A stretch of 64,000 bases of DNA, from the NCBI RefSeq assembly GCF_005780165.1, contig NZ_VAUV01000005.1:186001-250000 (forward strand), given 5' to 3'. Positions 18,140 to 31,410 of the stretch are shown here, one piece after another. The DNA comes from Phragmitibacter flavus (GTDB lineage Bacteria > Verrucomicrobiota > Verrucomicrobiia > Verrucomicrobiales > Verrucomicrobiaceae). The first letter of the stretch is position 1, and every line of letters starts with the position of its first letter. A program made the translations under genes and the position numbers. The notes beneath the pieces were generated by a model that worked only from the letters and a program-made list of their open reading frames with translations, did no database searches and was not told where the DNA came from.

Positions 18140-18225
18140 CTATTTATTTACGGGGGGCGGGTGGGGGTGTGGCAACTGGTTTTCGCTGGCTTTGCGGGGG
18201 GATTGGTTGGAGGATGGGGGACGTG

Positions 18226-19977
18226 ATGAGTGAGAGGACGCAGATTTCTTTGGCGGAGGCAGATTCTTCAGAAGAGCTGGAGAGGTTGCGGAGCCGGGTG
18301 GCGGAGCTGGAGCAGAGTGAGGAGAGGCTGAGGCTGGCGATTGAGATGGGGCGGATTGGATTGTGGGTGTGGGATTCGACGGATACTTCGAATGAGGGGG
18401 ACTGGTCGGAGCGGTTGAAGGAGATTTTTGGGCTGCCGCTGGATGCGGAGGTGACGCACGACATGTTTTTGAAGTGTGTGCATGGGGAGGATCGGGAGTT
18501 GATCCATGGGAAGGTGATGGGTGCGCTGGCGGGGGTGGATGAGGGGAGGTATACGGCGGAGTATCGGACGATCCGGGCGGATGATGGTCGTGAGGGGTGG
18601 GTGATGGCGAGGGGACAGGCGTTTTTTGATGGGTCGGGAAAGGCGGTGCGGTTTATTGGGACGGTGACCGACATCACGGAACGCAAGAGGGCGGAGGAGG
18701 CGCTGGCGAAGTTGAACGGGGAGCTGGAGGGGCTGGCTTATGGTCAGGCGGAGGCGCTGAAGCATGCGTTGACGATGCTTTCGAGGGAGTCGGAACCGGA
18801 CAGGTTTTTGGATCATGTTTTGCGAATGATTGGCCGGCAGTTTGCGGCGCATAGTTTGGGGGTTTGGGAGCTGAATGAGGTGACGGAGCGGGTGGAGTTG
18901 CTGGCGAGTTGTGAGGGTGAGGTGGTGCGGCTGGTGAAAGAGGATAAAGAGCAAGGGGCTCCGAGGTTTGCGCCGCCGGTGAGGGAGAACGGGGTGTGGA
19001 CGACGTTTTTCGCGACGGCGGAGCATTGCATTTTGGGGGATTTGGAGTCGGAGATGCCGAGGGTGAGGTTGGCTGGGGTGGCGGATGGGGAGTGGCAGGA
19101 GTGGCTGGGGGACATGGTGAACACGGAGGAGGTGCGGACGATGCTGCGGGTATTGACGGGGAAGGGGGTGAAGCTGACGTTGGGTGTGCCGATGCTGGTG
19201 GGGGGCAGGGTGGTGGGGTTCATCAATATCAGGTTCAAGGAGTGGAGGGTGTTTCGTGATGAGGAGCTGGGATTGGCGCGGGCGTTGGGGCATCAGGCGA
19301 TGCTGGCGATTCAGTTGATGCGGTTGTCGATGCAGAGTCGGAAGTCGGCGGTGATGGCGGAGCGGAACCGGTTGGCGAGGGATATTCATGACACGCTGGC
19401 GCAGGGGTTTACGGGGGTGATTGTGCAGTTGGAGGCGTCGGAGGATGCGCGTGTGGGGGGCTTGACGGAGGCGGCGGATGCGCATGTGACGAGGGCGAGG
19501 GAGCTGGCGCGGAACAGTTTGCAGGAGGCGCGGCGGTCGGTGCAGGCGCTGCGGCCGCAGGCGCTGGAAACGCAGGATTTGTGTGTGGCGTTGTCGAAGT
19601 TGTTCAAGAGCATGACGGAGGGGACGGGGTTGACGGCGAAGTTTGAGTTGCGTGGAAAGCCGAGGAAGCTGGTGGCAGAGGTGGAGTGCAATCTGTTGCG
19701 GATTGTGCAGGAGGTTTTGACCAATGTGTTGAGGCATGCGCAGGCAACGCGGTTTGAGGCGATTTTGTTTTTTGAGGAAGAGGAACTGCGACTGGAGTTG
19801 GAAGATGATGGACTGGGTTTTGACGTATTGGCGGTGCATGAGGGGTTTGGGTTGACGGGGATGCGGGAGCGCGTGGAGGCAATGGGGGGTGAGATGACCC
19901 TCGCCAGTTCGAGTGAAGCGGGGACTTCGATTTGCATCCGGCTGCCTCTGGTGGACGGTGGAGGGATTGTTGGATGA
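18226..19977 (+). CDS. soluble PAS-GAF sensor histidine kinase, NarL-partner type
   Basis: 583 residues. The ATG at 18226 was chosen because GGAGG lies about 13 bases upstream. An N-terminal coiled coil (about 7-35) is followed by a PAS domain (about 40-160, ending GTVTDITERKRAEEAL), a GAF domain (about 185-360) and a HisKA_3 domain with phospho-acceptor His388 in RLARDIHDTLAQG. HATPase_c follows, with EVLTNVLRHA, LEDDGLGFD and GFGLTGMRER. No membrane segment is seen, so the signal is probably cytoplasmic. The stop overlaps the start of the response regulator gene (ATGA), indicating translational coupling. Confidence 0.9.
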   Translation: MSERTQISLAEADSSEELERLRSRVAELEQSEERLRLAIEMGRIGLWVWDSTDTSNEGDWSERLKEIFGLPLDAEVTHDMFLKCVHGEDRELIHGKVMGALAGVDEGRYTAEYRTIRADDGREGWVMARGQAFFDGSGKAVRFIGTVTDITERKRAEEALAKLNGELEGLAYGQAEALKHALTMLSRESEPDRFLDHVLRMIGRQFAAHSLGVWELNEVTERVELLASCEGEVVRLVKEDKEQGAPRFAPPVRENGVWTTFFATAEHCILGDLESEMPRVRLAGVADGEWQEWLGDMVNTEEVRTMLRVLTGKGVKLTLGVPMLVGGRVVGFINIRFKEWRVFRDEELGLARALGHQAMLAIQLMRLSMQSRKSAVMAERNRLARDIHDTLAQGFTGVIVQLEASEDARVGGLTEAADAHVTRARELARNSLQEARRSVQALRPQALETQDLCVALSKLFKSMTEGTGLTAKFELRGKPRKLVAEVECNLLRIVQEVLTNVLRHAQATRFEAILFFEEEELRLELEDDGLGFDVLAVHEGFGLTGMRERVEAMGGEMTLASSSEAGTSICIRLPLVDGGGIVG

Positions 19978-20621
19978 TGAAAGGAAACTCGAAAAAGGCT
20001 GATGGATGGATTCGTGTCTTGATTGCGGATGATCATGTGACGGTGCTGGAGGGACTGGCGGCGATGATTGGCCGGCAGCCGGACATGGAGGTGGTGGCGG
20101 AGGCTTGTGATGGGGATGAGGCGGTGGCGAGGTGGCTGGAGTTACGACCAGACGTGGCGCTGGTGGACCTGCGAATGCCGGGTCGTGATGGGATGGAGGT
20201 GATTGAGGAAGTGCGCCGACATGACGGGACGGCGAAGGTGATTGTGCTGACGACTTATGATAATGACCAGGATGTGATGCGCGTGGTGAAAGCGGGGGCG
20301 AGGGGGTATTTGTTGAAGGATGCGCGGCGCGAGGAGTTGTTGGAGTGCATTCGCAAGGTGCATGCGGGGGAGACGTGCATTCCGCAGGGTTTGATTGAAA
20401 AGCTGGCGGCGGGGATCAGCGGGGAGACATTGACGGGACGGGAGTTGAATGTGCTGGAGCTTTTGGCGGAGGGGTTGAGCAACAAGGAGATTGCGGCGCG
20501 GTTGAGCATCAGCGAGACGACGGTGAAGACGCATTTGCGCGGGATTTTCGGGAAGCTGAATGTGTTGAGCCGGACGGAGGCGGTGACGGTGGCGGGTCGG
20601 CGCGGGTTTGTGCGGATTTGA
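19974..20621 (+). CDS. NarL/LuxR-family response regulator
   Basis: 215 residues from the ATG at 19974, which overlaps the kinase stop codon; GGAGGG lies 8 bases upstream. The receiver (about 18-135) has the acidic pair in VLIADDH, phospho-acceptor Asp65 in ALVDLRMPG, conserved Thr in VLTTYDN and Lys in YLLKDA. The LuxR-type HTH (about 150-212) has LTGRELNVLELLAEGLSNKE and TVKTHLRGIFGKL. It pairs with the upstream kinase. The next cluster downstream (20800-26851) is a plausible target but this is untested. Confidence 0.92.
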   Translation: MMKGNSKKADGWIRVLIADDHVTVLEGLAAMIGRQPDMEVVAEACDGDEAVARWLELRPDVALVDLRMPGRDGMEVIEEVRRHDGTAKVIVLTTYDNDQDVMRVVKAGARGYLLKDARREELLECIRKVHAGETCIPQGLIEKLAAGISGETLTGRELNVLELLAEGLSNKEIAARLSISETTVKTHLRGIFGKLNVLSRTEAVTVAGRRGFVRI

Positions 20622-20799
20622 TTCAGGGTCGCCTCGTTCAAAAGGATGAGGCGGAACTCATCCTTGGGCAGGGCGAAAAATCCAGCCGCATGATCCATGG
20701 TTTTTTGGGGGCGCAGCTGGCATGATGATGGGCGTTTCCAGTGTGCCTGGGCATAAGTTGGAAAACGAACTTAGTGACTAACTGACCACCATCATCATC

Positions 20800-21477
20800 A
20801 TGAATCCTTACTACAAGCTTTTTACGCCGGAAGATAGTGCCGTTGTATTTATTGATCACCAGCCGCAGATGACTTTTGGGGTGGCGAACATTGATCGGGC
20901 GACATTGATCAGCAATGTGACGCTGCTGGCCAAAGTTGCGAAAGAATTTAATGTGCCGACAGTGCTGACGGCGGTCGAGACGGAATCGTTTAGTGGTTAT
21001 ATCTGGCCACAATTGCTGGATGTGTTTCCTGGTCAGGAAGTGGTGGAGCGGACCTCGATGAATTCGTGGGATGATGCGGGTTTTCGCAAGGCGGTGGAAG
21101 CGACGGGACGGAAGAATATTCTGATGACGGGGTTGTGGACGGAGGTGTGTGTGACTTGGCCGACGATTGAGATGCTGGGGGCGGGCTATAACATCTATGT
21201 GGTGGAGGATTGTTGTGGAGCGACGTCACAGGCGGCGCATGATGCGGCGTTGTCGAGAATGGTGCAGGCGGGTGCGGTGCGGTTGACGGCGCTTCCGGCA
21301 TTGCTGGAGTGGCAACGGGATTGGGCGAAACGCGAGCATTACAACAACTTGATGGGGCTCATCAAGGAACAGGGTGGGGCTTATGGAGTCGGCGTTGAGT
21401 ATGCTTATACGATGGTGCATAAAGCGCCGCAGTCGGCGATCAAACCACAGGTGGTTCCGCACAAGGAAGGGCACTAA
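20800..21477 (+). CDS. isochorismatase-superfamily cysteine hydrolase (YcaC-like)
   Basis: 225 residues. The catalytic Asp is in VVFIDHQPQMTFG, the non-proline cis-peptide region follows, and the nucleophilic Cys is in MTGLWTEVCVTWPT at about residue 116. The order and the 'ERTSMNSWDD' segment match the YcaC group of uncertain substrate rather than true isochorismatases or nicotinamidases. It is the first gene of a five-gene same-strand cluster. The leader is G-poor (ctgaccaccatcatcatc) without a Shine-Dalgarno sequence. Confidence 0.87.
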   Translation: MNPYYKLFTPEDSAVVFIDHQPQMTFGVANIDRATLISNVTLLAKVAKEFNVPTVLTAVETESFSGYIWPQLLDVFPGQEVVERTSMNSWDDAGFRKAVEATGRKNILMTGLWTEVCVTWPTIEMLGAGYNIYVVEDCCGATSQAAHDAALSRMVQAGAVRLTALPALLEWQRDWAKREHYNNLMGLIKEQGGAYGVGVEYAYTMVHKAPQSAIKPQVVPHKEGH

Positions 21478-21494
21478 CTCAACATCGCAACGTC

Positions 21495-22079
21495 ATGGAC
21501 GATGAATCGGTTCACATTGCCGTTGTCCGGCGCGTTCGTCCTGAACGCGTGAAGGATTTCGAGGCGGCGCTGGGGGATTTTGCCCGCGTGTCGTTGGCGG
21601 AGCCGGGGGCGCGTGGAATTCAATGTTTGTATCCTGCGCCGGGGGCGAAGGTTCAGGAGTATGGGATCATGCGAACGTTTGCGAATGCGGCGGCGCGTGA
21701 TGCGTTTTATGCTTCCGAGGCTTATCACCGGTGGGAGAAGACGATTGAGCCGATGGTCGAAGGGACGTTGCAGATTCGTGAGTTGCATGGGCTGGAGGCG
21801 TGGTTTCGTCATGCTTCGGATGGTAGTCCGCCGCCGCGGTGGAAGATGGCGTTGTTGACCTGGCTGGCGGTCTGGCCGGTGAGCATGGGGATTGCGGCAT
21901 TGGTGTTGCCGCTTCTGGGAGGGTTGATGCACAAGGTGTTGGTGTCAGGGGTGATCGCGGCTGGGATTACCGCAACGCTGACCTGGGTGGCGATGCCCGT
22001 TTTGGTGAAAGCGGCACACGGATGGTTGCATCCGAATTCGGAAGACAAGGTGCTTCAGGTGCCCGAAAAAAATAACTAA
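21495..22079 (+). CDS. ABM-domain (antibiotic biosynthesis monooxygenase-like) membrane protein
   Basis: 194 residues. An N-terminal dimeric alpha-beta barrel/ABM domain (about 6-100) has HIAVVRRVRPERVKDFEAAL, FANAAARDAFYASEAY and FRHAS. Two membrane helices follow (about 115-137 and 143-165, LLTWLAVWPVSMGIAALVLP type). ABM proteins are small cofactor-light oxygenases or heme/quinone-binding proteins; the tethered two-TM form is common in hydrolase clusters. It starts 17 bases after the cysteine hydrolase. Confidence 0.82.
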   Translation: MDDESVHIAVVRRVRPERVKDFEAALGDFARVSLAEPGARGIQCLYPAPGAKVQEYGIMRTFANAAARDAFYASEAYHRWEKTIEPMVEGTLQIRELHGLEAWFRHASDGSPPPRWKMALLTWLAVWPVSMGIAALVLPLLGGLMHKVLVSGVIAAGITATLTWVAMPVLVKAAHGWLHPNSEDKVLQVPEKNN

Positions 22080-22106
22080 AGAAGAAACACAGAGAACTTA
22101 CAACTT

Positions 22107-23984
22107 ATGAAAGTGGAGCCTGATTTGATTTTGGTAAATGGACGGATTACGACGCTGGATGATGGTTATCCTGAAGCGCGGGAAGCGGTGATCAAGGATG
22201 GGAAGGTGCTGAGTCTGGATGATGCGCATGAGTATCCACGTGGGCCAGAAACGAAGGTGATTGACTTGAAAGGTAGAAGGGTGATTCCGGGGTTGAATGA
22301 TTCGCATCTGCATGTGATTCGCGGCGGGTTGAATTATAACATGGAGTTGCGCTGGGATGGGGTTCCTTCACTGGCGGATGGGTTGCGGATGTTGAAGGCG
22401 CAGGCGGCGCGGACGCCGGTGGGGCAGTGGGTGAGGATTGTGGGGGGATGGAGCGAGTTTCAGTTTGCGGAGCGTCGCATGCCGACGTTGGCGGAGATCA
22501 ATGAAGCGGCACCGGAGACGCCGGTGTTTATTTTGCATTTGTATTGCCGGGCCTTGCTGAATGGGGCGGCGTTGCGGGCTTGTGGTTATACCCGGGATAC
22601 GCCGAATCCACCGGGTGGGGAGATTCAGAGGGATTCGGAAGGGAATCCGACGGGGCTGCTGATTGCGCGTCCGAATGCGACGATTTTGTATGCGACTCTG
22701 GCGAAGGGTCCGAAGTTGCCGCCGGAGCATCAGTTGAATTCGACGCGACATTTTATGCGTGAGCTGAACCGCTTGGGATTGACGAGCATCATTGATGCAG
22801 GTGGTGGGTTTCAGAATTATCCGGATGACTATGTGATCATTGACGAGTTACACAAACGCGGGGAGATGACGCTGCGGATTGCTTATAACTTGTTTACTCA
22901 AAAACCGAAGGAGGAGAAGGAGGATTTTGCGCGTTGGATCAAGATGACGGGGCCGGGCAAGGGCGATGATTTTTTCCGCTGCAATGGGGCGGGTGAGATG
23001 TTGGTTTTTTCAGCGGCGGACTTTGAGGATTTTCTGGAGCCAAGGCCGGATCTGGCGGCTTCTGTGGAGGAGGAGTTGAAGGGGGTGGTGACGTTGCTGG
23101 CGGCGAACAAGTGGCCGTTCCGATTGCATGCGACTTATGATGAGAGCATCACAAGATTTTTGAATGTGTTTGAGGAGGTGAACCAAGAAGTGCCGTTTGG
23201 TGGGGTGCATTGGTTCTTTGATCATTGTGAGACGATTTCGGATCGGAATCTAGAGCGGGTGAAGGCGTTGGGAGGCGGGGTGGCGATCCAGCATCGGATG
23301 GCGTTTCAAGGCGAGTATTTTATGGATCGGTATGGCAAGGAAGCGGCGGAGCGGACACCTCCGGTGAGGCGGATGCTGGAGATGGGATTGCCGGTGGGGG
23401 CGGGATCGGATGCGACGCGGGTGGCGAGTTATAATCCGTGGGTGTCGTTGTGTTGGCTGACGACGGGCAAGACGGTAGGGGGAACTTCGATGTATCCGGA
23501 CAAGAATTGTTTGAGTCGGGAGGAGGCGTTGCGGCTTTACACGTTGGGAATCACATGGTTTTCGACGGAGGAGGGCAAGAAGGGATCGCTGGGGGTTGGG
23601 AAGCTGGCCGATCTGGCGGTGTTGTCGGATGATTATTTTGACGTGGATGATGAGGCGATCAAAAGCATTGAAGCGGTGATGACGGTGGTGGATGGCAGGG
23701 TGGTGTATGCGGTGGAGGAGTTTGGATCATTTGCGCCGCCGTCGATTCCGGTGTTGCCGGAGTGGTCGCCGGTCTCGGTGTTTGGCGGGTATGGGGCGCC
23801 GCTGGATGTGAAGAAGATGGCGAGGGCGGGAGTGCCGATGCCGTTGGTGAGTCATGAGCATTCGGCGGAGTGTCGGTCGCATGGTTGTGATCATGCAGGG
23901 TTGCAGTTGATGGCGGGAGTAGAGGCGGCGCGGAACCGGTTTGCGTCGTTCTGGGGTTCGGGATGTGACTGTTTTGCGTTTTGA
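22107..23984 (+). CDS. YtcJ-like metal-dependent amidohydrolase (amidohydrolase 3 family)
   Basis: 625 residues. The N-terminal beta-sandwich strand is LILVNGRITTLDDG, and the metal-binding HxH is in PGLNDSHLHV at about residue 72. Further ligands probably lie in LHATYDES, FFDHCETI and GAGSDATRV. The C-terminal KLADLAVLSDDYFDV closes the sandwich. Family members include N-substituted formamide deformylases and other amide hydrolases. An unusual Cys/His-rich tail (HEHSAECRSHGCDH, and SGCDCFAF at the end) extends past the fold and might bind a metal. It is 27 bases after the ABM gene. Confidence 0.88.
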   Translation: MKVEPDLILVNGRITTLDDGYPEAREAVIKDGKVLSLDDAHEYPRGPETKVIDLKGRRVIPGLNDSHLHVIRGGLNYNMELRWDGVPSLADGLRMLKAQAARTPVGQWVRIVGGWSEFQFAERRMPTLAEINEAAPETPVFILHLYCRALLNGAALRACGYTRDTPNPPGGEIQRDSEGNPTGLLIARPNATILYATLAKGPKLPPEHQLNSTRHFMRELNRLGLTSIIDAGGGFQNYPDDYVIIDELHKRGEMTLRIAYNLFTQKPKEEKEDFARWIKMTGPGKGDDFFRCNGAGEMLVFSAADFEDFLEPRPDLAASVEEELKGVVTLLAANKWPFRLHATYDESITRFLNVFEEVNQEVPFGGVHWFFDHCETISDRNLERVKALGGGVAIQHRMAFQGEYFMDRYGKEAAERTPPVRRMLEMGLPVGAGSDATRVASYNPWVSLCWLTTGKTVGGTSMYPDKNCLSREEALRLYTLGITWFSTEEGKKGSLGVGKLADLAVLSDDYFDVDDEAIKSIEAVMTVVDGRVVYAVEEFGSFAPPSIPVLPEWSPVSVFGGYGAPLDVKKMARAGVPMPLVSHEHSAECRSHGCDHAGLQLMAGVEAARNRFASFWGSGCDCFAF

Positions 23985-23993
23985 TTTGATGTT

Positions 23994-25598
23994 ATGAGTG
24001 AGGGGAAGAAGGGCGCATGGTCGGTGTTGGGGAATTCGGTGTTCCGGTCGCTGTGGCTGGCGAATGTGGCGTCGGGCATTGGGTCGACGTTGCATGACAC
24101 GGCGGCGGTGTGGACGATGACGTCGTTGACGACTTCGGCGACGCTGGTGACCTTGATGCAGACGATGTCGAGTTTGCCGCTGTTTTTCCTGGCGCTGCCG
24201 GCGGGGGCGTTGGCGGATTTGGTGGATCGGCGGAGGGTGATCATTGCGGCGCAGGTGGGGTCGTTGCTGGTGACGATGGGGTTGGTGGTGATGTCGGCGA
24301 TGGGGATGCTGACGCCGGGAGTGCTGCTGGCGGTGACGTTCTTGCTGGGGGTCGGGGTGGCGTTTACGATGCCGACCTGGCAGGCGTTGTTGGCGGAGTT
24401 GGTGGACAAGAAGGATCTGACCGGGGCGCTGACGCTGGGGAGCATTGGGGTGAATAATTCGCGGGCGCTGGGGCCGTTGGTGGCGGGGGTGTTGCTGGCA
24501 GCATCGGGTCCGACGGCGGCGTTTGCGTTGAATGCGTTGTCGTTTGTGGGAATCATTGCGGTGTTGTGGAGGTCGAAGTCACCGGTGGTGATGAAGGGGG
24601 CGCATGCGGAGCGGATGATGGGGGCGATGGTGACCTCGCTGCGTTTTACGAGGCATTCGCCAGTGATTCAGCGGGTGTTGTTGCGCAATGCGGGATTTGC
24701 GTTTTTTGGGATTGCGCCGGTGGCGTTGTTGCCGTTGATCGTGCGGGGACGTGGATTGTCGGCGGGGGATTTCGGGCTGTTGATGGGGGTGTATGGGGTT
24801 GGGGGGATCTTGGCGGCGTTTTTGGTGTTGCCGAAGTTGCGGGCGAAGGTTTCGGCGGACGGGATTTTAACGGCTGGGACGGTGTTGTTTGCGTTGCTGG
24901 CGGCGGGCCTGAGTCTGGTGGGGAATCGCTGGGGGATGATGGCGATTTTATTGGTGGCGGGTGGGGCCTGGTTGACTTGCATGTCAACGCTGGCGGTGGC
25001 GGCGCAGAGTGCGTTTCCGAATTGGGTGCGGGCGAGGAGTTCGGCGATTTTTCTGATTGTGGTGCAGGTATCGCTGGCGGTTGGGGCGGTGGTCTGGGGT
25101 CAGGTGACGGCGGGGACGGATGCTGGTTGGGCGCTGCGGGTGGCGGCTTTGGGTTTGTTGCTGACGGGAGGGTTGGGTTGGTGGTTCAAGGTTCGGGTGA
25201 GTGGCGCGATGGGATTGAATTTAACGCCTTCTTCGCATTGGGCGGGTCATGAGCTGGCGATGGAGCCATCGGATGGAGAGGGGCCGGTGATGGTGGAGTT
25301 GGAGTATGTGGTGAAGGCGGAGGAGGTGGTGAAGTTCCAACGGGCGATGTCGGCGCTGCGGGTGGTGAGGTTGAGGGATGGGGCGTTTCGCTGGTCGCTG
25401 TTTCAGGATTTGGATGAGCCAGGTCGATTCAAAGAAGTGTTTTTGGTGGGGACCTGGGGAGAGCATTTGCGTCAGCATGAGCGGGCGACGGCGGATGATC
25501 GGGTGATTGAAGAGGCGGTGCTGGCGTTTCATGTGGGGGATGGGGCACCCAAAGCGAGGCATCATTTGATGAAGGAGGTGAGGGCAGTGGTGTTGTGA
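23994..25598 (+). CDS. MFS transporter (EntS/MFS_3 family) with C-terminal ABM-like domain
   Basis: 534 residues. A 12-span MFS_3 transporter occupies about 10-410, with FRSLWLANVASGIGSTLHDT at the first helix and the loop 2-3 motif ALADLVDRRRV. About 110 cytoplasmic residues follow, resembling a degenerate ABM/dimeric barrel domain (VMVELEYVVKAEEVVKFQRA, then FLVGTWGEHLRQHE). This fused architecture is known for PF05977 members. Export of a small molecule or its breakdown product is the likely job. The stop overlaps the start of the next gene by 4 bases (GTGA). Confidence 0.9.
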   Translation: MSEGKKGAWSVLGNSVFRSLWLANVASGIGSTLHDTAAVWTMTSLTTSATLVTLMQTMSSLPLFFLALPAGALADLVDRRRVIIAAQVGSLLVTMGLVVMSAMGMLTPGVLLAVTFLLGVGVAFTMPTWQALLAELVDKKDLTGALTLGSIGVNNSRALGPLVAGVLLAASGPTAAFALNALSFVGIIAVLWRSKSPVVMKGAHAERMMGAMVTSLRFTRHSPVIQRVLLRNAGFAFFGIAPVALLPLIVRGRGLSAGDFGLLMGVYGVGGILAAFLVLPKLRAKVSADGILTAGTVLFALLAAGLSLVGNRWGMMAILLVAGGAWLTCMSTLAVAAQSAFPNWVRARSSAIFLIVVQVSLAVGAVVWGQVTAGTDAGWALRVAALGLLLTGGLGWWFKVRVSGAMGLNLTPSSHWAGHELAMEPSDGEGPVMVELEYVVKAEEVVKFQRAMSALRVVRLRDGAFRWSLFQDLDEPGRFKEVFLVGTWGEHLRQHERATADDRVIEEAVLAFHVGDGAPKARHHLMKEVRAVVL

Positions 25599-26851
25599 GA
25601 TGGGCGGGATTTATTTTATTGATGGGATGCTCGGTGGTGAGTGGGCAGGGATGGGAGTGGTCGTTTTCGGGTCATGCGAGAACGATGGGAGAGAGTTATC
25701 GGGGACTGGATTTGGGTTTGGGGGAGATTGAGGATGATGCGTGGGTGCATCAGCGGGTGCAGTTGATGGCGACGGGCGAGTGGGAGGAGCGTTGGCTGAT
25801 TGCAGCGGAGTTGACCTGGGGAGACATGTGGGGTCGGGAATCGCCGTTGGGCCCGCCGGATCAGGATGAAGGGGATTGGTTGCAGGTTTATGGTCAGAGG
25901 ACCTGGGAGTTGGGGGGAGAAGACGAGGTGGAGATGCGCGTGGGAAGGCAAACGCTTTATTATGGGTCGGGTCGGTTGCTGGCGTCGAGGGAAGGGGCGA
26001 ACCAGAGGTTGTCGCATGATGGGGTCAGGGTTTCCTGGCAGCGGGGAGAGGAGATGAGGGTGGATGGTTTTGTCGCGTCGCCGGTGGAGACGGGGCCGGG
26101 AGTTTTCGATAATGAATCGCATCAGAAGGAGGTGATGTTTTGGGGTGTTTATGCGGTGATGCCTTCGCCGCTGGATAAGCAAGGTTTCGTGGATGGGTAT
26201 TACATTGGGTTGCGTGATGAAGGATCGATTTTTGTGGAGGACGGGGGGCGTGAATTGAGGCACACGGTGGGGACGCGCTGGTGGAACGAGGGAGTTCCGT
26301 GGGTTTACAACACGGAGCTGATTTTTCAGTTCGGTGAGGCGGGGGGGCGCGAGATTCTGGCTGGCGCGGCAAGTCTCGGCGTGGGATATGTGTTGGAGGA
26401 TGTGAGGTGGCGGCCAACGCTGATGCTGCGGGCGGATGCGATTTCCGGGGGGGATGACGAGGGAACGTTGCACACGTTTCATCCGCTGTTTCAGGCGAAC
26501 AATTATTTCAATGAAGGTGGGTTCATTTCGCCGTCGAATCTTTATAATGTGAATCCGGTGCTGACGTTAAAACCGCATGAGAGGGTGACGGTGAGTTTTG
26601 GGGTGAATTTTCAGTGGAGGTTCAGTGCGGAAGACGATGTTTATGGGCCGCCGTTGCAGAGGTTGGGAGGTCCGGCACCGGATGGTGAGAGGTATTTGGG
26701 GACGGCACTGAACGCGGCGGTGATCTGGCAGGTGCGGGAGAGCGTGGAGCTGGCGCTCGGCTATACCCATCACGAAGCCGGGCGTTCGCTGGTGGCGGTT
26801 GGTGGCGATGACGTGGAGTATTTTCAGGCGAGTTTTCGCGTGGCGTTCTGA
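25595..26851 (+). CDS. alginate-export-type outer-membrane porin
   Basis: 418 residues from the GTG at 25595, overlapping the MFS stop. The N-terminal signal sequence ends near LLMGCSVVSGQG; the Cys makes a lipoprotein signal conceivable, though a Sec signal is more usual. The mature part is a beta-barrel of the alginate_exp/AlgE-like family: VEMRVGRQTLYYGSGRLLAS, HDGVRVSW, and FHPLFQANNYFNEGGFISPS near residue 300. It ends in YFQASFRVAF with a terminal Phe. It supplies outer-membrane passage for the cluster. Confidence 0.85.
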   Translation: MRWAGFILLMGCSVVSGQGWEWSFSGHARTMGESYRGLDLGLGEIEDDAWVHQRVQLMATGEWEERWLIAAELTWGDMWGRESPLGPPDQDEGDWLQVYGQRTWELGGEDEVEMRVGRQTLYYGSGRLLASREGANQRLSHDGVRVSWQRGEEMRVDGFVASPVETGPGVFDNESHQKEVMFWGVYAVMPSPLDKQGFVDGYYIGLRDEGSIFVEDGGRELRHTVGTRWWNEGVPWVYNTELIFQFGEAGGREILAGAASLGVGYVLEDVRWRPTLMLRADAISGGDDEGTLHTFHPLFQANNYFNEGGFISPSNLYNVNPVLTLKPHERVTVSFGVNFQWRFSAEDDVYGPPLQRLGGPAPDGERYLGTALNAAVIWQVRESVELALGYTHHEAGRSLVAVGGDDVEYFQASFRVAF

Positions 26852-26982: not shown

Positions 26983-27192
26983 ATGTCCAAAAACGCAGGC
27001 ATCGCCAAAACCAGAAAATCCGTTAGCAAACGGTTCAAAATCACGGGCAGTGGTAAAGTCCTCCGTCGTCGGCAGGGCAAGCGCCACTTGCTTCAAAATA
27101 AGAACCGCAAACGCAAACGCTCACTGGGCAAAGCCGTTCTCGTGCACGAGACCGACGCTGCAGCAGTCAAGGCCAACATGCCTTGGTCCTGA
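26983..27192 (+). CDS. rpmI: 50S ribosomal protein L35
   Basis: 69 residues from the ATG at 26983. L35 features are KTRKSVSKRFKITGSGKVLR, the basic RRRQGKRHLLQNKNRKRKR core and the end DAAAVKANMPWS. An in-frame TTG 30 bases earlier is rejected because it adds residues foreign to the family. It is the first gene of rpmI-rplT-pheS-pheT. infC, often upstream of rpmI, is not present here. Confidence 0.95.
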   Translation: MSKNAGIAKTRKSVSKRFKITGSGKVLRRRQGKRHLLQNKNRKRKRSLGKAVLVHETDAAAVKANMPWS

Positions 27193-27193
27193 G

Positions 27194-27236
27194 TCGTCGT
27201 TTGAATTGCACCCGGCCGCAGTCGCGGCCACGACGA
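27194..27236 (+). promoter_or_regulatory. stem-loop in the rpmI-rplT spacer, possible L20 autoregulatory site
   Basis: The outer stem tcgtcgt (27194-27200) pairs with acgacga (27230-27236). The inner stem ggccgc (27214-27219) pairs with gcggcc (27224-27229). A 13-base bulge lies on the 5' side. In other bacteria L20 binds its own mRNA in this operon. The structure is visible; the function is inferred from position only. Confidence 0.45.
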
Positions 27237-27323
27237 TCCGGTCTGGCTCTGTAATAGGAGCCTTCGATCAAGTGAGGCCCTTCGTCGAATTTTTAACAAC
27301 AGCTTGATCTTGAGAGAAAATAC

Positions 27324-27707
27324 ATGTCAAGAGCTACCAACGCACCAGCCAGCCGCAAGCGCCGTAAGCGCACGCTCGCCAAAGCCAAAGGATTCCGCGG
27401 CTTCCGTTCCAAATTGTTCCGTTACGCCAAGGACGCTGTCCGCAAGGCGATGTCATATGCCTATCGTGACCGCAAGGTTCGCAAGCGTGACTTCCGCAAG
27501 TTGTGGATCCAGCGCATCAACTCCGCTGCCCGTGCTGAAGGCTTGAGCTACAGCCGATTTACCGAAGGCCTGAAGGCTGCCGGTATCCAGCTTGACCGCA
27601 AAGTCCTTGCCGACCTCGCCGTCACCGATGGAGCAGCCATCAAGGCCCTTATCCAGCAAGCCAAAAACGCTTTGGAAAACAAAGCGAAGTCCAAGGCGGC
27701 TGCTTAA
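27324..27707 (+). CDS. rplT: 50S ribosomal protein L20
   Basis: 127 residues; family length is about 115-120. Hallmarks are SRKRRKRTLAKAKGFRGFRS, then FRYAKDAVRKAMSYAYRDRK, WIQRINSAAR and LSYSRFTEGLKAAGIQLDRK. It binds 23S rRNA early in 50S assembly. It follows rpmI by 131 bases containing a stem-loop and is followed by a strong terminator. The C-terminal tail is slightly extended and Ala/Lys-rich. Confidence 0.96.
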   Translation: MSRATNAPASRKRRKRTLAKAKGFRGFRSKLFRYAKDAVRKAMSYAYRDRKVRKRDFRKLWIQRINSAARAEGLSYSRFTEGLKAAGIQLDRKVLADLAVTDGAAIKALIQQAKNALENKAKSKAAA

Positions 27708-27750
27708 TCATTTGATCTGCCCGATTCGACCTCGAACCCATTTACCAATT

Positions 27751-27783
27751 AAGCCGGGGTCTGCACAGGCACCGGCTTTTTTG
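27751..27783 (+). terminator. intrinsic terminator after rplT
   Basis: The stem aagccgg / ccggctt closes a loop of about 14 bases and runs into cttttttg. It separates the ribosomal protein genes from pheS. Confidence 0.85.
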
Positions 27784-27862
27784 TGGATCAGCATCAACGC
27801 GGCGGAGCGGGCTTGCAAGGCCTGTGATGTTATCGTTGCTCGCGGTTTAGGTGTTTTTGTTT

Positions 27863-27897
27863 GTTCTTGGTTCCTGGTTCTTTGTTCTTCGTTATTC
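27863..27897. repeat. heptamer tandem array upstream of pheS
   Basis: Units GTTCTTG, GTTCCTG, GTTCTTT, GTTCTTC and GTTATTC have an exact 7-base period and end 19 bases before the pheS ATG. Same word family as 18112-18139. Confidence 0.85.
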
Positions 27898-27916
27898 AGC
27901 TTTAGTTTTCTTCCTC

Positions 27917-28933
27917 ATGCTCGACCAACTTTCCGCTCTCCAAATTGAAGCCCTTGCGGCGCTCGCTGACATCCAGGACGAAAGCGCACTGGAGAATTTT
28001 CGTGTCGGATACCTTGGCAAAAAAGGCAGTCTGACGGCGCTGAGTGCCGGCATGCGTGAGGTGCCTGCTGATCAAAAAGGCGCGGTGGGGCAGAAGCTCA
28101 ATGAGGTGCGCACGGCATTGACGGCCGGGATTGAAGAGAAGGTGGCGGCCATGGCGGCGGCGAAGGATGCGGCTTCGGTGGCGGGGATTGATGTGACGCT
28201 GCCCGGACTGCCGACACCGAACGGGGCTTTGCATCCGCTGACGCGCATCCGCGATCGGGCGATTCAGACACTGCGTCGCATGGGATTTGCTTTGGCAGAT
28301 GGACCGGAGATTGAAACGGAGTGGCATTGTTTTGATGCGCTGAACACACCGGCGGATCATCCAGCGCGGAACGAGAAGGACACATTTTATTTGCCGGATG
28401 GGCGGTTGATGCGCACGCATACATCGAGTGTGCAGATTCGCACGATGGAATCGATCAAGGCATTGCCGGTGCGCATCATTGCACCGGGGGCGGCGTATCG
28501 TCGGGACGAGATTGATGCGACCCATTTAAGCGTGTTCAATCAGTTGGAAGGTTTGTATGTGGGCCGGGACGTGAGTCTGGCAGATCTGAAAGGGACGCTG
28601 GAGTATTTCTTCCAGGAGATTTTTGGGCCGCAGACACAGGTGCGTTTTCGTCCGCATTTCTTCCCGTTCACGGAACCGAGTTTTGAGATTGATGTGAAGC
28701 TCGAGGTCAAAGGTCAGGCACCGAAATGGATTGAGATCGCCGGTTGCGGGATGGTGGATCCGGCGGTGTTCGAGGCGGTGAGCAAGAGCCGTGGAGACAA
28801 TCTGTTTGATCCGGATTTGGTCACGGGTTTTGCTTTTGGCATGGGGCTGGACCGGCTGGCGATGATCCTGCATGGGATCACGGACATTCGTCATTTGATT
28901 GAGAATGACGTGCGGTTCCTCGGGCAGTTTTAG
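27917..28933 (+). CDS. pheS: phenylalanine--tRNA ligase alpha subunit
   Basis: 338 residues from the ATG at 27917 (MLDQLSALQIEALAAL). The upstream in-frame GTG at 27851 is rejected because it would translate the heptamer array. The N-terminal coiled coil is about 1-85. Class II catalytic motifs follow: HPLTRIRDRAIQTLRRMGF (motif 1 region), HTSSVQIRTM, the motif 2 region PGAAYRRDEIDATH, then FFPFTEPSFEID, and motif 3 GFAFGMGLDRLAMI. It pairs with pheT 86 bases downstream as the alpha2-beta2 synthetase. Confidence 0.95.
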   Translation: MLDQLSALQIEALAALADIQDESALENFRVGYLGKKGSLTALSAGMREVPADQKGAVGQKLNEVRTALTAGIEEKVAAMAAAKDAASVAGIDVTLPGLPTPNGALHPLTRIRDRAIQTLRRMGFALADGPEIETEWHCFDALNTPADHPARNEKDTFYLPDGRLMRTHTSSVQIRTMESIKALPVRIIAPGAAYRRDEIDATHLSVFNQLEGLYVGRDVSLADLKGTLEYFFQEIFGPQTQVRFRPHFFPFTEPSFEIDVKLEVKGQAPKWIEIAGCGMVDPAVFEAVSKSRGDNLFDPDLVTGFAFGMGLDRLAMILHGITDIRHLIENDVRFLGQF

Positions 28934-29019
28934 TCTCTATTCCTCCATCGCATCTGCCAAAACCATGGGCACCCTTGAATCAAAACTGGTGACTCGATAA
29001 TTTTAATTTTTTTATTCTG

Positions 29020-31410
29020 ATGAAGACTTCTCTTAAGTGGCTCAATGCCCATCTTGATCTTGGTTCCCACAGTATTGATGAACTGAGGGACATGCTGACG
29101 TTTGCGGGGATTGAAGTGGAGGGGATCGAGCAGAGCGGGGTGGAATCGGACAAGATTGTGGTGGCGCAGATCGTCTCTTTTGAGCAGCATCCCAATGCGG
29201 ATCGGTTGAGTGTTTGTCAGGTGGATGATGGCAGCGGCAAGGCGCGGCAGATTGTGTGTGGCGCGAAGAATTTCAAGGCAGGGGACAAGGTGCCACTGGC
29301 GTTGCCGGGTGCGGTTTTGCCGGGCGGGATTGAGATCAAGGAAGGGAAGCTGCGCGAGTTGCTTTCGCAGGGGATGTTGTGCAGTGCGAAGGAGCTTGGC
29401 GTGGGGGAAGACCAAGGGGGATTGTGGATTCTTGAGGCGGGATTGAAGGTGGGAACGCCGATGAAGGAGTTGGTGGCTTCGGATGTGATCTTTGATCTGG
29501 AGGTGACGCCGAACCGGCCGGATTTGTTGAGTCATACCGGACTGGCGCGCGAGTTGGCGGCGTTGACGGGGAAGACGCTGGTTCAGAGCGATGAGATGGT
29601 GCTGCCGGTGACGGAGAAGGCTGGCGTGGCGGAGATTCACCTCGCGGAGCCGACGCTTTGTCCGTTCTACACGTTGCGCCGGATCGAAGGCGTGAAGGTG
29701 GGGCCGAGTCCAGAGTGGTTGCAGAGCCGCTTGAAGAGCATTGGGCTGCGTCCGATTAACAACATCGTGGACATCACCAATTATGTGTTGTTCGAAGTGG
29801 GTCAGCCGCTGCATGCGTTCGATGCCGCGAAGCTGGTGGTGCCGGTGACGATTCGCAAAGCGACGGAAGGGGAGAAGCTGGTGGCTTTGGATGGCAATGA
29901 GCATGCGCTTTTGCCGGAGGATTTGGTGATTGCTGACAACGGCAAGGCGCTGGCGATTGCCGGGGTGATGGGGGGTGAGGAGAGTGGGGTGACGGAGGGC
30001 ACGACGGACATTTTGCTGGAGGCGGCTTATTTCAATCCATCTTCGGTGCGTCGCACGGCGCGCCGTCTGGTGTTGAGCACGGATTCGAGTTATCGTTTTG
30101 AGCGCGGAGTCGATGCGCAAGCGGTGATTCGTGCGAGTGCTTTGGCCACGCAGTTGATTTTGCAGACGGCGGGCGGCAAGGCTTCGGAGACGTTGCTAGT
30201 GGCGGGCGAGGCTCCGGTGTTGACGCAGCCGGTGGTGCTGGATGAGGAGCGGGCGCGGCGTTTGATTGGCATTGCGGATCTTCCGAGGGCGGAGATGCAT
30301 GCGATTTTGACTTCGTTGGGATTGGTGAAGACCTGCGAGACGGAGGTGACGTCGACCTGGACGGTGCCGAGTTATCGGAATGATTTGTTGAGGTCGGTGG
30401 ATCTGGTCGAGGAACTGGCGCGGGTGATCGGGCTGGATCGGGTGCCGTCGAAAGCATCGGGCGTGTTTGTGGCGCCGCAGAGTGCGGACAAGTCCTATGA
30501 TTTCATGATGCAGGTGCGTCAGGCTTTGACGAATCGTGGCTTTAATGAGGCGCAGACGTTGCGGCTGGTTTCGAAGGGGCAGTTGACGGATGTGCTGGCG
30601 GCGAAGGTGGATGCGGTGGCATTGAAAAATCCGTTAAGCGAGGATCATACGCATTTGCGGCCGGGGTTGATCCCTGGTTTGTTGATGACGGCGGGTCACA
30701 ATGTCCGGCAGGGGCTGGCGACGTTGCGGTTCTTTGAGTTGGGTCGGGTGTTTTTGCTGAATCCGAATGGCAGCAGTCGAGAAGAAGAGCGGCTGTCGGT
30801 GTTGATGAGCGGTCCGGAACATGCGGTGAGCTGGAATGCGAAATCGCCTGCGGTGGCGGATATTCATGCGTTGCGCGGGGTGCTGGAATCGTTGCCGGGT
30901 CTGGCCGGGCAGGGGTTGTTGCTGGTGCCGAAGGCGGTGGACGGATGGTTGTTGAGTGCGGAGATCAAGCGTGGCAGCAAGACGCTGGGCTGGATCGCGC
31001 AGGTGGCTCCGGCGCGGGCGCGGGAATTGGACGCGAGGCATCCGATTTACGTGGCGGAGCTGGCGGTGAGTGCGTTGCAGCAGGGCGTGGTGAGTGCGGT
31101 CAAGTTCAGCGATTTGCCGCGGTATCCGAGTGTGACCCGGGATGTGGCGTTGGAGGTGGCGGCGGATCTTCCGCATGCGACGGTGGCGGCATTTTTTGAA
31201 AAACAGAAGGAGCCTTTGTTGATGGGAGCGGAGCTGTTTGATGTTTTTGTGGATGCCTCAGGTGAAAGACTGGCGCATGACAAAAAATCCATCGCATGGC
31301 GCTTGACCTATCGTTCTTCTGAGCGGACGCTAGCCACGAAAGAGGTGGACGAAACCCATCAGCGAGTGCTCAAAGCATTGGTTGGCACGGTCCCGGCTAC
31401 CATCCGTTAA
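29020..31410 (+). CDS. pheT: phenylalanine--tRNA ligase beta subunit
   Basis: 796 residues, normal length. The domain order is an N-terminal tRNA-binding OB fold (about 40-155, IVSFEQHPNADRLSVCQVDD), B3/B4 editing (about 215-385, RPINNIVDITNYVLFEVGQP) and B5 (about 405-475). A catalytic-like module follows, with RYPSVTRDVALEV. The C-terminal anticodon-binding FDX-ACB domain ends KSIAWRLTYRSSERTLATKE. The leader is T-rich with no Shine-Dalgarno sequence. A strong terminator follows at 31648. Confidence 0.95.
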   Translation: MKTSLKWLNAHLDLGSHSIDELRDMLTFAGIEVEGIEQSGVESDKIVVAQIVSFEQHPNADRLSVCQVDDGSGKARQIVCGAKNFKAGDKVPLALPGAVLPGGIEIKEGKLRELLSQGMLCSAKELGVGEDQGGLWILEAGLKVGTPMKELVASDVIFDLEVTPNRPDLLSHTGLARELAALTGKTLVQSDEMVLPVTEKAGVAEIHLAEPTLCPFYTLRRIEGVKVGPSPEWLQSRLKSIGLRPINNIVDITNYVLFEVGQPLHAFDAAKLVVPVTIRKATEGEKLVALDGNEHALLPEDLVIADNGKALAIAGVMGGEESGVTEGTTDILLEAAYFNPSSVRRTARRLVLSTDSSYRFERGVDAQAVIRASALATQLILQTAGGKASETLLVAGEAPVLTQPVVLDEERARRLIGIADLPRAEMHAILTSLGLVKTCETEVTSTWTVPSYRNDLLRSVDLVEELARVIGLDRVPSKASGVFVAPQSADKSYDFMMQVRQALTNRGFNEAQTLRLVSKGQLTDVLAAKVDAVALKNPLSEDHTHLRPGLIPGLLMTAGHNVRQGLATLRFFELGRVFLLNPNGSSREEERLSVLMSGPEHAVSWNAKSPAVADIHALRGVLESLPGLAGQGLLLVPKAVDGWLLSAEIKRGSKTLGWIAQVAPARARELDARHPIYVAELAVSALQQGVVSAVKFSDLPRYPSVTRDVALEVAADLPHATVAAFFEKQKEPLLMGAELFDVFVDASGERLAHDKKSIAWRLTYRSSERTLATKEVDETHQRVLKALVGTVPATIR

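Follow-up and report, generated by a model that had tools for sequence, protein, structure and literature searches.

The stretch of DNA analysed here (the window) comprises 64,000 nucleotides of Phragmitibacter flavus (contig NZ_VAUV01000005.1, positions 186,001 to 250,000). Within it, five closely spaced genes at 20800–26851 code for a cysteine hydrolase (CysH), an ABM-type membrane protein (ABM-TM), an amidohydrolase (AmiH), an MFS exporter and an outer-membrane porin. Our principal finding is that CysH and AmiH accompany each other across many bacterial groups, apparently as the core of an inducible hydrolase module. The relevant features, in window coordinates, are the following.

18169..19977, + strand: sensor histidine kinase with PAS, GAF, HisKA_3 and HATPase domains (Pfam; start codon uncertain)
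19932..20621, + strand: NarL-type response regulator (Pfam)
20633..20650, no strand assigned: candidate operator CTCGTTC-AAAA-GGATGAG (comparison with siblings)
20800..21477, + strand: CysH, YcaC-like cysteine hydrolase with Asp19, Arg84 and Cys117 (open reading frame; Pfam Isochorismatase, 100.6 bits)
21495..22079, + strand: ABM-TM, ABM-type fold (residues ~1–98) plus two long helices (Pfam ABM, predicted model)
22107..23984, + strand: AmiH, metal-dependent amidohydrolase of PF07969 (Pfam Amidohydro_3, 446.7 bits)
23841..23981, + strand: AmiH tail, residues 579–625, Cys/His-rich, ending in G-C-D-C-F-A-F (C620, C622)
23994..25598, + strand: MFS_3 exporter (Pfam MFS_3, 499.1 bits)
25595..26851, + strand: outer-membrane porin of the Alginate_exp family (Pfam)

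The first-pass annotation had described the five genes as overlapping or separated by 28 bases or less. The list of open reading frames bears this out, with gaps of 17, 27 and 9 bases followed by a 4-base overlap. The two-component system that it had placed just upstream is likewise recognized by Pfam as a PAS-GAF-HisKA_3 kinase and a NarL-type regulator. The TTG listed as the start codon of the regulator probably lies too far upstream; an ATG around 19974–19977 is the better candidate, and 178 bases lie between the end of its gene and the start of CysH.

AmiH homologs were collected from a one-genome-per-species collection, in which at least 585 stretches encode such a protein. The best 80 of them (61–81% identical) were kept; they come from Verrucomicrobiota, Proteobacteria, Bacteroidota, Acidobacteriota, Planctomycetota and others. 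Together with 16 regions from relatives and the window itself they make 97 loci, or 96 after removal of a duplicate (L103, the same as L004); further duplicates are possible, close relatives are favoured, and the loci share descent, so that P-values calculated on them ignore kinship. In 84 of the 96 loci the distance from AmiH to a CysH gene is at most 5 kb, and CysH is present in all 11 groups, which were assigned by hand from record titles. When only flanks of at least 7 kb are counted (160 of 192 sides), CysH occurs 77 times within 3.5 kb of AmiH and once between 3.5 and 7 kb. The same pairing is seen at the level of whole genomes. Among 387 genomes of the phylum, 23 encode AmiH and 22 CysH, all 22 being shared, and the listed pairs are on the same contig no more than 2.5 kb apart; one genome (G190) has two adjacent CysH-AmiH pairs. 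The sole AmiH genome lacking CysH (G237) codes for a protein only 49% identical, with an in-frame stop. In a set of 57 relatives, AmiH (E-values up to 1e-100) and CysH (up to 1e-60) were found in an identical set of 17 genomes. These E-value cut-offs, like the others used in this work (1e-180 and 1e-62), were chosen by us. Even in Polyangium (L017) CysH, ABM-TM and AmiH are 87%, 61% and 67% identical to those of the window, with the same kinase and regulator alongside. The notion that the genes are not co-conserved anywhere is contradicted by these counts. Judging from such comparisons, the cluster is almost certainly a functional unit.

Plasmids carry copies as well. AmiH occurs on those of rhizobia, Pantoea, Priestia and Streptomyces, and in plasmids from Streptomyces, Priestia, Agrobacterium, Microvirga, Rhizobium, Ruegeria and Cronobacter an annotated hydrolase adjoins the amidohydrolase or is one short gene away. 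Among the matches listed (60 of 620 records), the identity of plasmid AmiH ranges from about 56% down to 37.5%. No relative was found in viral contigs, and a near search, which covers close DNA only, gave no match to an Enterobacter CysH-AmiH stretch in complete E. coli genomes. The module has apparently been kept and passed on as a unit. Tail-less relatives with 49–53% identity occur in the phylum, and by sequence AmiH is not separated from its kin by a clean identity gap. Several individual copies were noted besides. In L117 (G015) AmiH is decayed, with four in-frame TGA codons, next to an intact CysH; the Escherichia albertii plasmid NZ_CP030786.2 retains just a middle piece of AmiH; and in L132 and L134 (G254 and G405, of the same class) CysH is flanked by two AmiH-like genes, both devoid of the C-x-C tail.

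The company of the pair is much less constant. Families found within 5 kb of AmiH in the 96 loci are ABM-TM (53 loci), alpha/beta hydrolase (33), porin (32), DoxX (32), DUF1275 (26), LysR (20), MFS (16), Dps (15, mostly in Bacteroidota, 12 of 15), AraC (15), XapX (12), pirin (7) and SDR (7), while FMN reductase is present in a single locus. Enrichment in the close flank (0–3.5 kb against 3.5–7 kb) is evident for ABM-TM (47:0), DoxX (28:1), porin (26:0), DUF1275 (22:2), Dps (14:0), MFS (11:1) and XapX (10:0); AraC (10:13) and SDR (4:5) contrast with these. The DoxX protein scores 27.9 with the HvfX-type model, below the cut-off of 80. Five sibling clusters have the order kinase-regulator-CysH-ABM-AmiH-porin, the order CysH-ABM-AmiH-MFS-porin is that of the window alone among the 97 loci, and L132 contains all five families arranged differently. 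The ABM membrane protein, the porin and the MFS exporter can be described, from these gene neighbourhoods, as frequent but exchangeable partners. Since order and partners vary, we regard the window cluster as a local form of a module with CysH and AmiH at its core. As a separate observation, a stand-alone protein corresponding to the N-terminal (macro-like) domain of Peptidase_M17 adjoins AmiH in 11 loci, nine of them from Bacteroidota (L040, L047, L054, L058, L065, L066, L071, L075, L076, L020 and L026).

AmiH has the fold and metal ligands of YtcJ-like PF07969 proteins, a group which includes N-substituted formamide deformylase (NfdA) together with the metallo bile salt hydrolase of PMC13081902; most of PF07969 is uncharacterized, according to excerpts of that paper. 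The ligands H67, H69, H341, H373 and D435 (HxH, H, H, D) are kept in all 47 AmiH sequences aligned. In YtcJ-like proteins the metals are bridged by a lysine, often carboxylated (PMC13081902, same excerpts). By alignment, AmiH lacks this Lys, usual in PF07969, and has instead an invariant Glu (E297) within G-x-G-E; the Lys is present in the ordinary relatives L140–L142, and L125 and L126 lack it and share G-x-G-E. The predicted model of AmiH has a mean pLDDT (predicted local distance difference test) of 85.4. The nearest solved structures, 3igh and 3icj, are uncharacterized metal-dependent hydrolases of Pyrococcus with just 20–22% identity to AmiH; the two closest superpositions have Z 35.9 with a root-mean-square deviation of 4.1 over 456 aligned residues and Z 35.1 with 4.6 over 443. 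AmiH thus differs from YtcJ-like proteins in the Glu replacing Lys, in a probably flexible tail with a terminal C-x-C and in the obligate company of CysH, and on its sequence features it is classed here as a distinct group within PF07969.

The Cys/His-rich tail reported for AmiH in the first-pass annotation proved to be real. Residues 579–625 have pLDDT below 50 and are probably a flexible linker, as far as the model can tell. C-x-C followed by exactly three residues forms the carboxyl terminus in 94 of 95 complete AmiH genes (FAF in 82); the count leaves out L013 and L016, where AmiH is cut by contig ends, and the sole exception is the second AmiH copy in L014. More distant relatives (L125, L126, L132–L135) are devoid of C-x-C, and Streptomyces L118 ends in TCFVL. 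The motif stands at fixed positions -6/-4 from the end (23964–23981 in the window) despite a very variable linker length. The pattern suggests that the free carboxyl end of AmiH may be recognized or buried. We also considered the Cys at position -4 as part of a prenylation box; as no bacterium is known to prenylate proteins of its own, the resemblance was judged a coincidence.

CysH shares with YcaC (E. coli, 1yac; P. aeruginosa, 4wgf) both the isochorismatase fold family and the Asp-Arg-Cys set. The roles of the Asp, Arg and Cys of YcaC, the last being the nucleophile (C118 in P. aeruginosa), are described in passages of PMC4519933. In 84 aligned rows, with the window counted twice, D19 is conserved in 82 and R84 and C117 in all. 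However, CysH scores 134.2 bits with the YcaC model (NCBIfam NF041461), not reaching the cut-off of 310, and is itself tied to AmiH. We therefore consider CysH, on alignment, a YcaC-like cysteine hydrolase of the isochorismatase fold that lies outside YcaC proper. Its isochorismatase-family relatives in the PDB include biuret hydrolase. The E. coli ycaC gene, which is not of the CysH subfamily, is affected by deletion of ycaN, as stated in an excerpt of PMC9068703. Both YcaC-like isochorismatases and PF07969 amidohydrolases are listed for the secretomes of plant-pathogenic fungi and not for the non-pathogens compared (PMC2409186, in part); they may be related to CysH and AmiH.

Two ABM-type domains had initially been proposed for the cluster, and this is borne out in part. 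ABM-TM matches Pfam ABM (PF03992) marginally, with 24.3 bits against a cut-off of 23.1, and its model shows an ABM fold over residues ~1–98 (Foldseek match 2omo, E-value 1.3e-7). In this part it resembles the ABM-fold proteins YgiN and LsrG, but unlike them it has two long helices fused on (115–141 and 147–173), which in the model are probably in the membrane. The only invariant residues in 43 sequences are G41, W103, M167, P168, W177 and L178, leaving few (G41 and nearby) in the ABM part. The second proposed domain, the soluble C-terminal part of the MFS protein (about 25266–25583), falls within the MFS_3 model, residues 7–527 covering positions 2–520 of the 524 in PF05977. Pfam ABM gave no match in the window protein and 14.5 bits against the cut-off of 23.1 in L050, and hhalign of the MFS C-terminus with the ABM protein returned a probability of 26% (0.2% for the CysH control). 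By its profile coverage this part is a regular portion of the MFS_3 family, not a distinctive one, and the case for an ABM-like domain there is weak. The porin matches Alginate_exp (PF13372) with 174.8 bits (cut-off 25.2), and its orthologs in the five siblings are 64–66% identical.

In the five siblings as well as in L010 and L017, the cluster adjoins orthologs of the kinase (43–48% identical) and of the regulator (62–67%). These seven clusters have in common, upstream of CysH, the palindrome CTCATCC-AAAA-GGATGAG. It is exact in the siblings L102–L106 and takes the forms CTCCTCC-AAAA-GGAGGAG in L010 and CTCCTTC-GAAA-GGAGGAG in L017; its 8-mers occur in five of the seven upstream regions, compared with at most four in 20 mononucleotide shuffles. 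The regulator (E-values up to 1e-62) has 10 copies in 8 of the 57 relatives. The pattern CTCVTYCRAAAGGAKGAG gives 11 sites, distributed over exactly the 8 genomes with the regulator; the remaining 49 have no site, and the reversed CTCVTYCRAAAGGAKGAG used as control matches nowhere in the 57. The pattern had been broadened with sites that it afterwards recovers; independent of this are the 49 genomes without a site, the lack of matches with the reversed pattern and the second site in G011 (291647). For the more distant regulators L137, L005, L026 and L045 (44–54% identity), the 420 bases downstream contain no site; neither do those of L102, L103 and L017, because their sites are further off, adjoining CysH.

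Six of the 11 sites precede an AmiH operon, and the remaining five (G001:C190, G018:C191, G020:C7, G007:C9 and G011:C1:291647) an alpha/beta-hydrolase gene. The five corresponding operons (L181–L185) include an SDR gene in four cases and begin with a YcaC-like hydrolase in two. No close regulator gene adjoins the second site in G011 (33% identity at best), as would be expected if one regulator serves two operons. The two operons are further tied by loci in which their genes are neighbours: an alpha/beta hydrolase and an SDR adjoin CysH-ABM-AmiH in L013, and alpha/beta hydrolases do so in L008, L010 and L016. Comparative evidence thus makes the link between regulator and site very probable, and the upstream two-component system is assigned here, as a new element, to the same unit.

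Taken as a whole, these data are best read as describing an inducible hydrolase module directed against an amide-type molecule, to which we give a probability of about 0.55. Formamide-type compounds, which the first-pass annotation had named alongside amides, are not specifically favoured by any of these data. The kinase would sense the compound or the resulting stress, and the regulator would bind the palindrome 5' of CysH and switch on CysH-ABM-AmiH-(MFS)-porin, in relatives also an alpha/beta-hydrolase operon that usually has an SDR gene. The porin may admit the molecule across the outer membrane. CysH, using its Cys nucleophile, and AmiH, using metal-activated water, could then act sequentially on one small amide-, imide- or ureide-type molecule; the chemistry is that of their families, and a common function is shown by their co-occurrence. 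At the inner membrane, going by family, ABM-TM and the MFS protein would handle the molecule or what it is turned into. The purpose of the module would be to defend the cell against an organic toxin from outside, not to feed it, and the alpha/beta hydrolase, SDR, Dps and DoxX partners were counted as a protective context. Strict pairing of CysH with AmiH despite changing membrane partners argues for one common environmental molecule. The shared control site offers a direct route to it, as the signal of the AmiH operon should also induce the relatives' alpha/beta-hydrolase operon.

A number of observations weigh against this reading. CysH is absent or more than 5 kb away in 12 of the 96 loci; some of these are near a contig edge, and L044, L069 and L083 have full flanks. 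The tail-less AmiH relatives L132–L134 retain CysH, so the tail is unnecessary for pairing. Alpha/beta hydrolase (23:11) and LysR (16:9) are weakly enriched in the close flank, and pirin (1:5) and VOC (0:4), typical electrophile-response genes, not at all. No MFS gene was found beside the five sibling clusters; therefore, export must be dispensable. The window site at 20633 is degenerate, with two mismatches, and alone does not exceed chance; our operator call is based on the siblings rather than on this site by itself. Finally, a slightly narrower pattern gave eight sites in seven of the 387 genomes, four of them without a kinase, regulator or CysH homolog nearby. Given these four chance-like sites, the palindrome is informative only jointly with the regulator.

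The porin and two hydrolases would suit uptake and use of a nitrogen-containing small molecule, which the module would open for its nitrogen or carbon. The patchy spread (23 of 387 genomes) is common for catabolic genes, and the kinship of CysH with biuret hydrolase points the same way. On the other hand, the transporter, where there is one, is of the MFS_3/EntS-like export type, the markers counted near AmiH revealed no enriched uptake system, oxygenase or downstream catabolic genes, and the Dps, DoxX and alpha/beta hydrolase partners fit stress. We consider such a nutrient operon possible, although rather unlikely.

A response to quinones or electrophiles in general, like the Bacillus MhqR or E. 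coli YhaJ regulons, would account for DoxX, Dps, alpha/beta hydrolase and pirin in the proportions given above, and DoxX, alpha/beta hydrolases and reductases are indeed common to those regulons and some AmiH clusters. A Priestia plasmid copy lies beside FMN reductase, aldo/keto reductase and spxA, and in rhizobia the neighbours include a VOC protein and LysR. According to PMC5557065, the proteins that increase in P. fluorescens In5 when it meets Rhizoctonia include DoxX, pirin, azoreductase, an alpha/beta hydrolase and a further hydrolase; the latter is described there as a distant phosphoesterase relative and so need not be CysH. However, the AmiH module differs in its CysH-AmiH core and two-component control. 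Moreover, neither pirin and VOC nor the MhqD-like esterase (2:6) is enriched, FMN reductase is confined to one locus, and the esterase score of 25.7 is far below the MhqD cut-off of 325. This makes the explanation quite improbable. An accidental neighbourhood without common function, which the varying membrane partners and the five-gene order unique to the window might suggest, is scarcely credible, because co-occurrence and distance decay contradict it for CysH, ABM-TM, AmiH and porin and leave chance weakly open for the MFS gene (11:1).

A bolder version of the hydrolase-module reading is that AmiH is a distinct class in which the variant metal site (Glu for Lys) and the C-x-C peptide form a built-in thiol/metal switch, CysH and AmiH together being a two-enzyme route against an unrecognized class of natural toxin across many phyla. 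The flexible tail might deliver, guard or withdraw a metal, or sense electrophiles, and AmiH activity would be confined to the stress that is also signalled by the two-component system. We regard this version as speculative and unlikely to hold in full.

All the parts belong to known families; together they would make up an inducible operon of hydrolases, of which the amidohydrolase is unusual. No description of this cluster or of the CysH-AmiH pair was found in the partial texts of the open-access PMC literature. A possible link with isothiocyanate (sax) genes was of no help, SaxB being called uncharacterized in an excerpt of PMC12903958. An RNA-seq table for Phytobacter includes an isochorismatase and an amidohydrolase whose identity with CysH and AmiH cannot be told from the portion of PMC12648084 concerned. 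As for the surrounding sequence, the numbers of promoter-like (4) and terminator-like (15) sites compare with 2.8 and 7.9 expected, and the majority of the latter are intragenic. The region 3' of the cluster (26984–31410) was read, from its frames rather than by a search, as genes for a ribosomal protein and phenylalanyl-tRNA synthetase.

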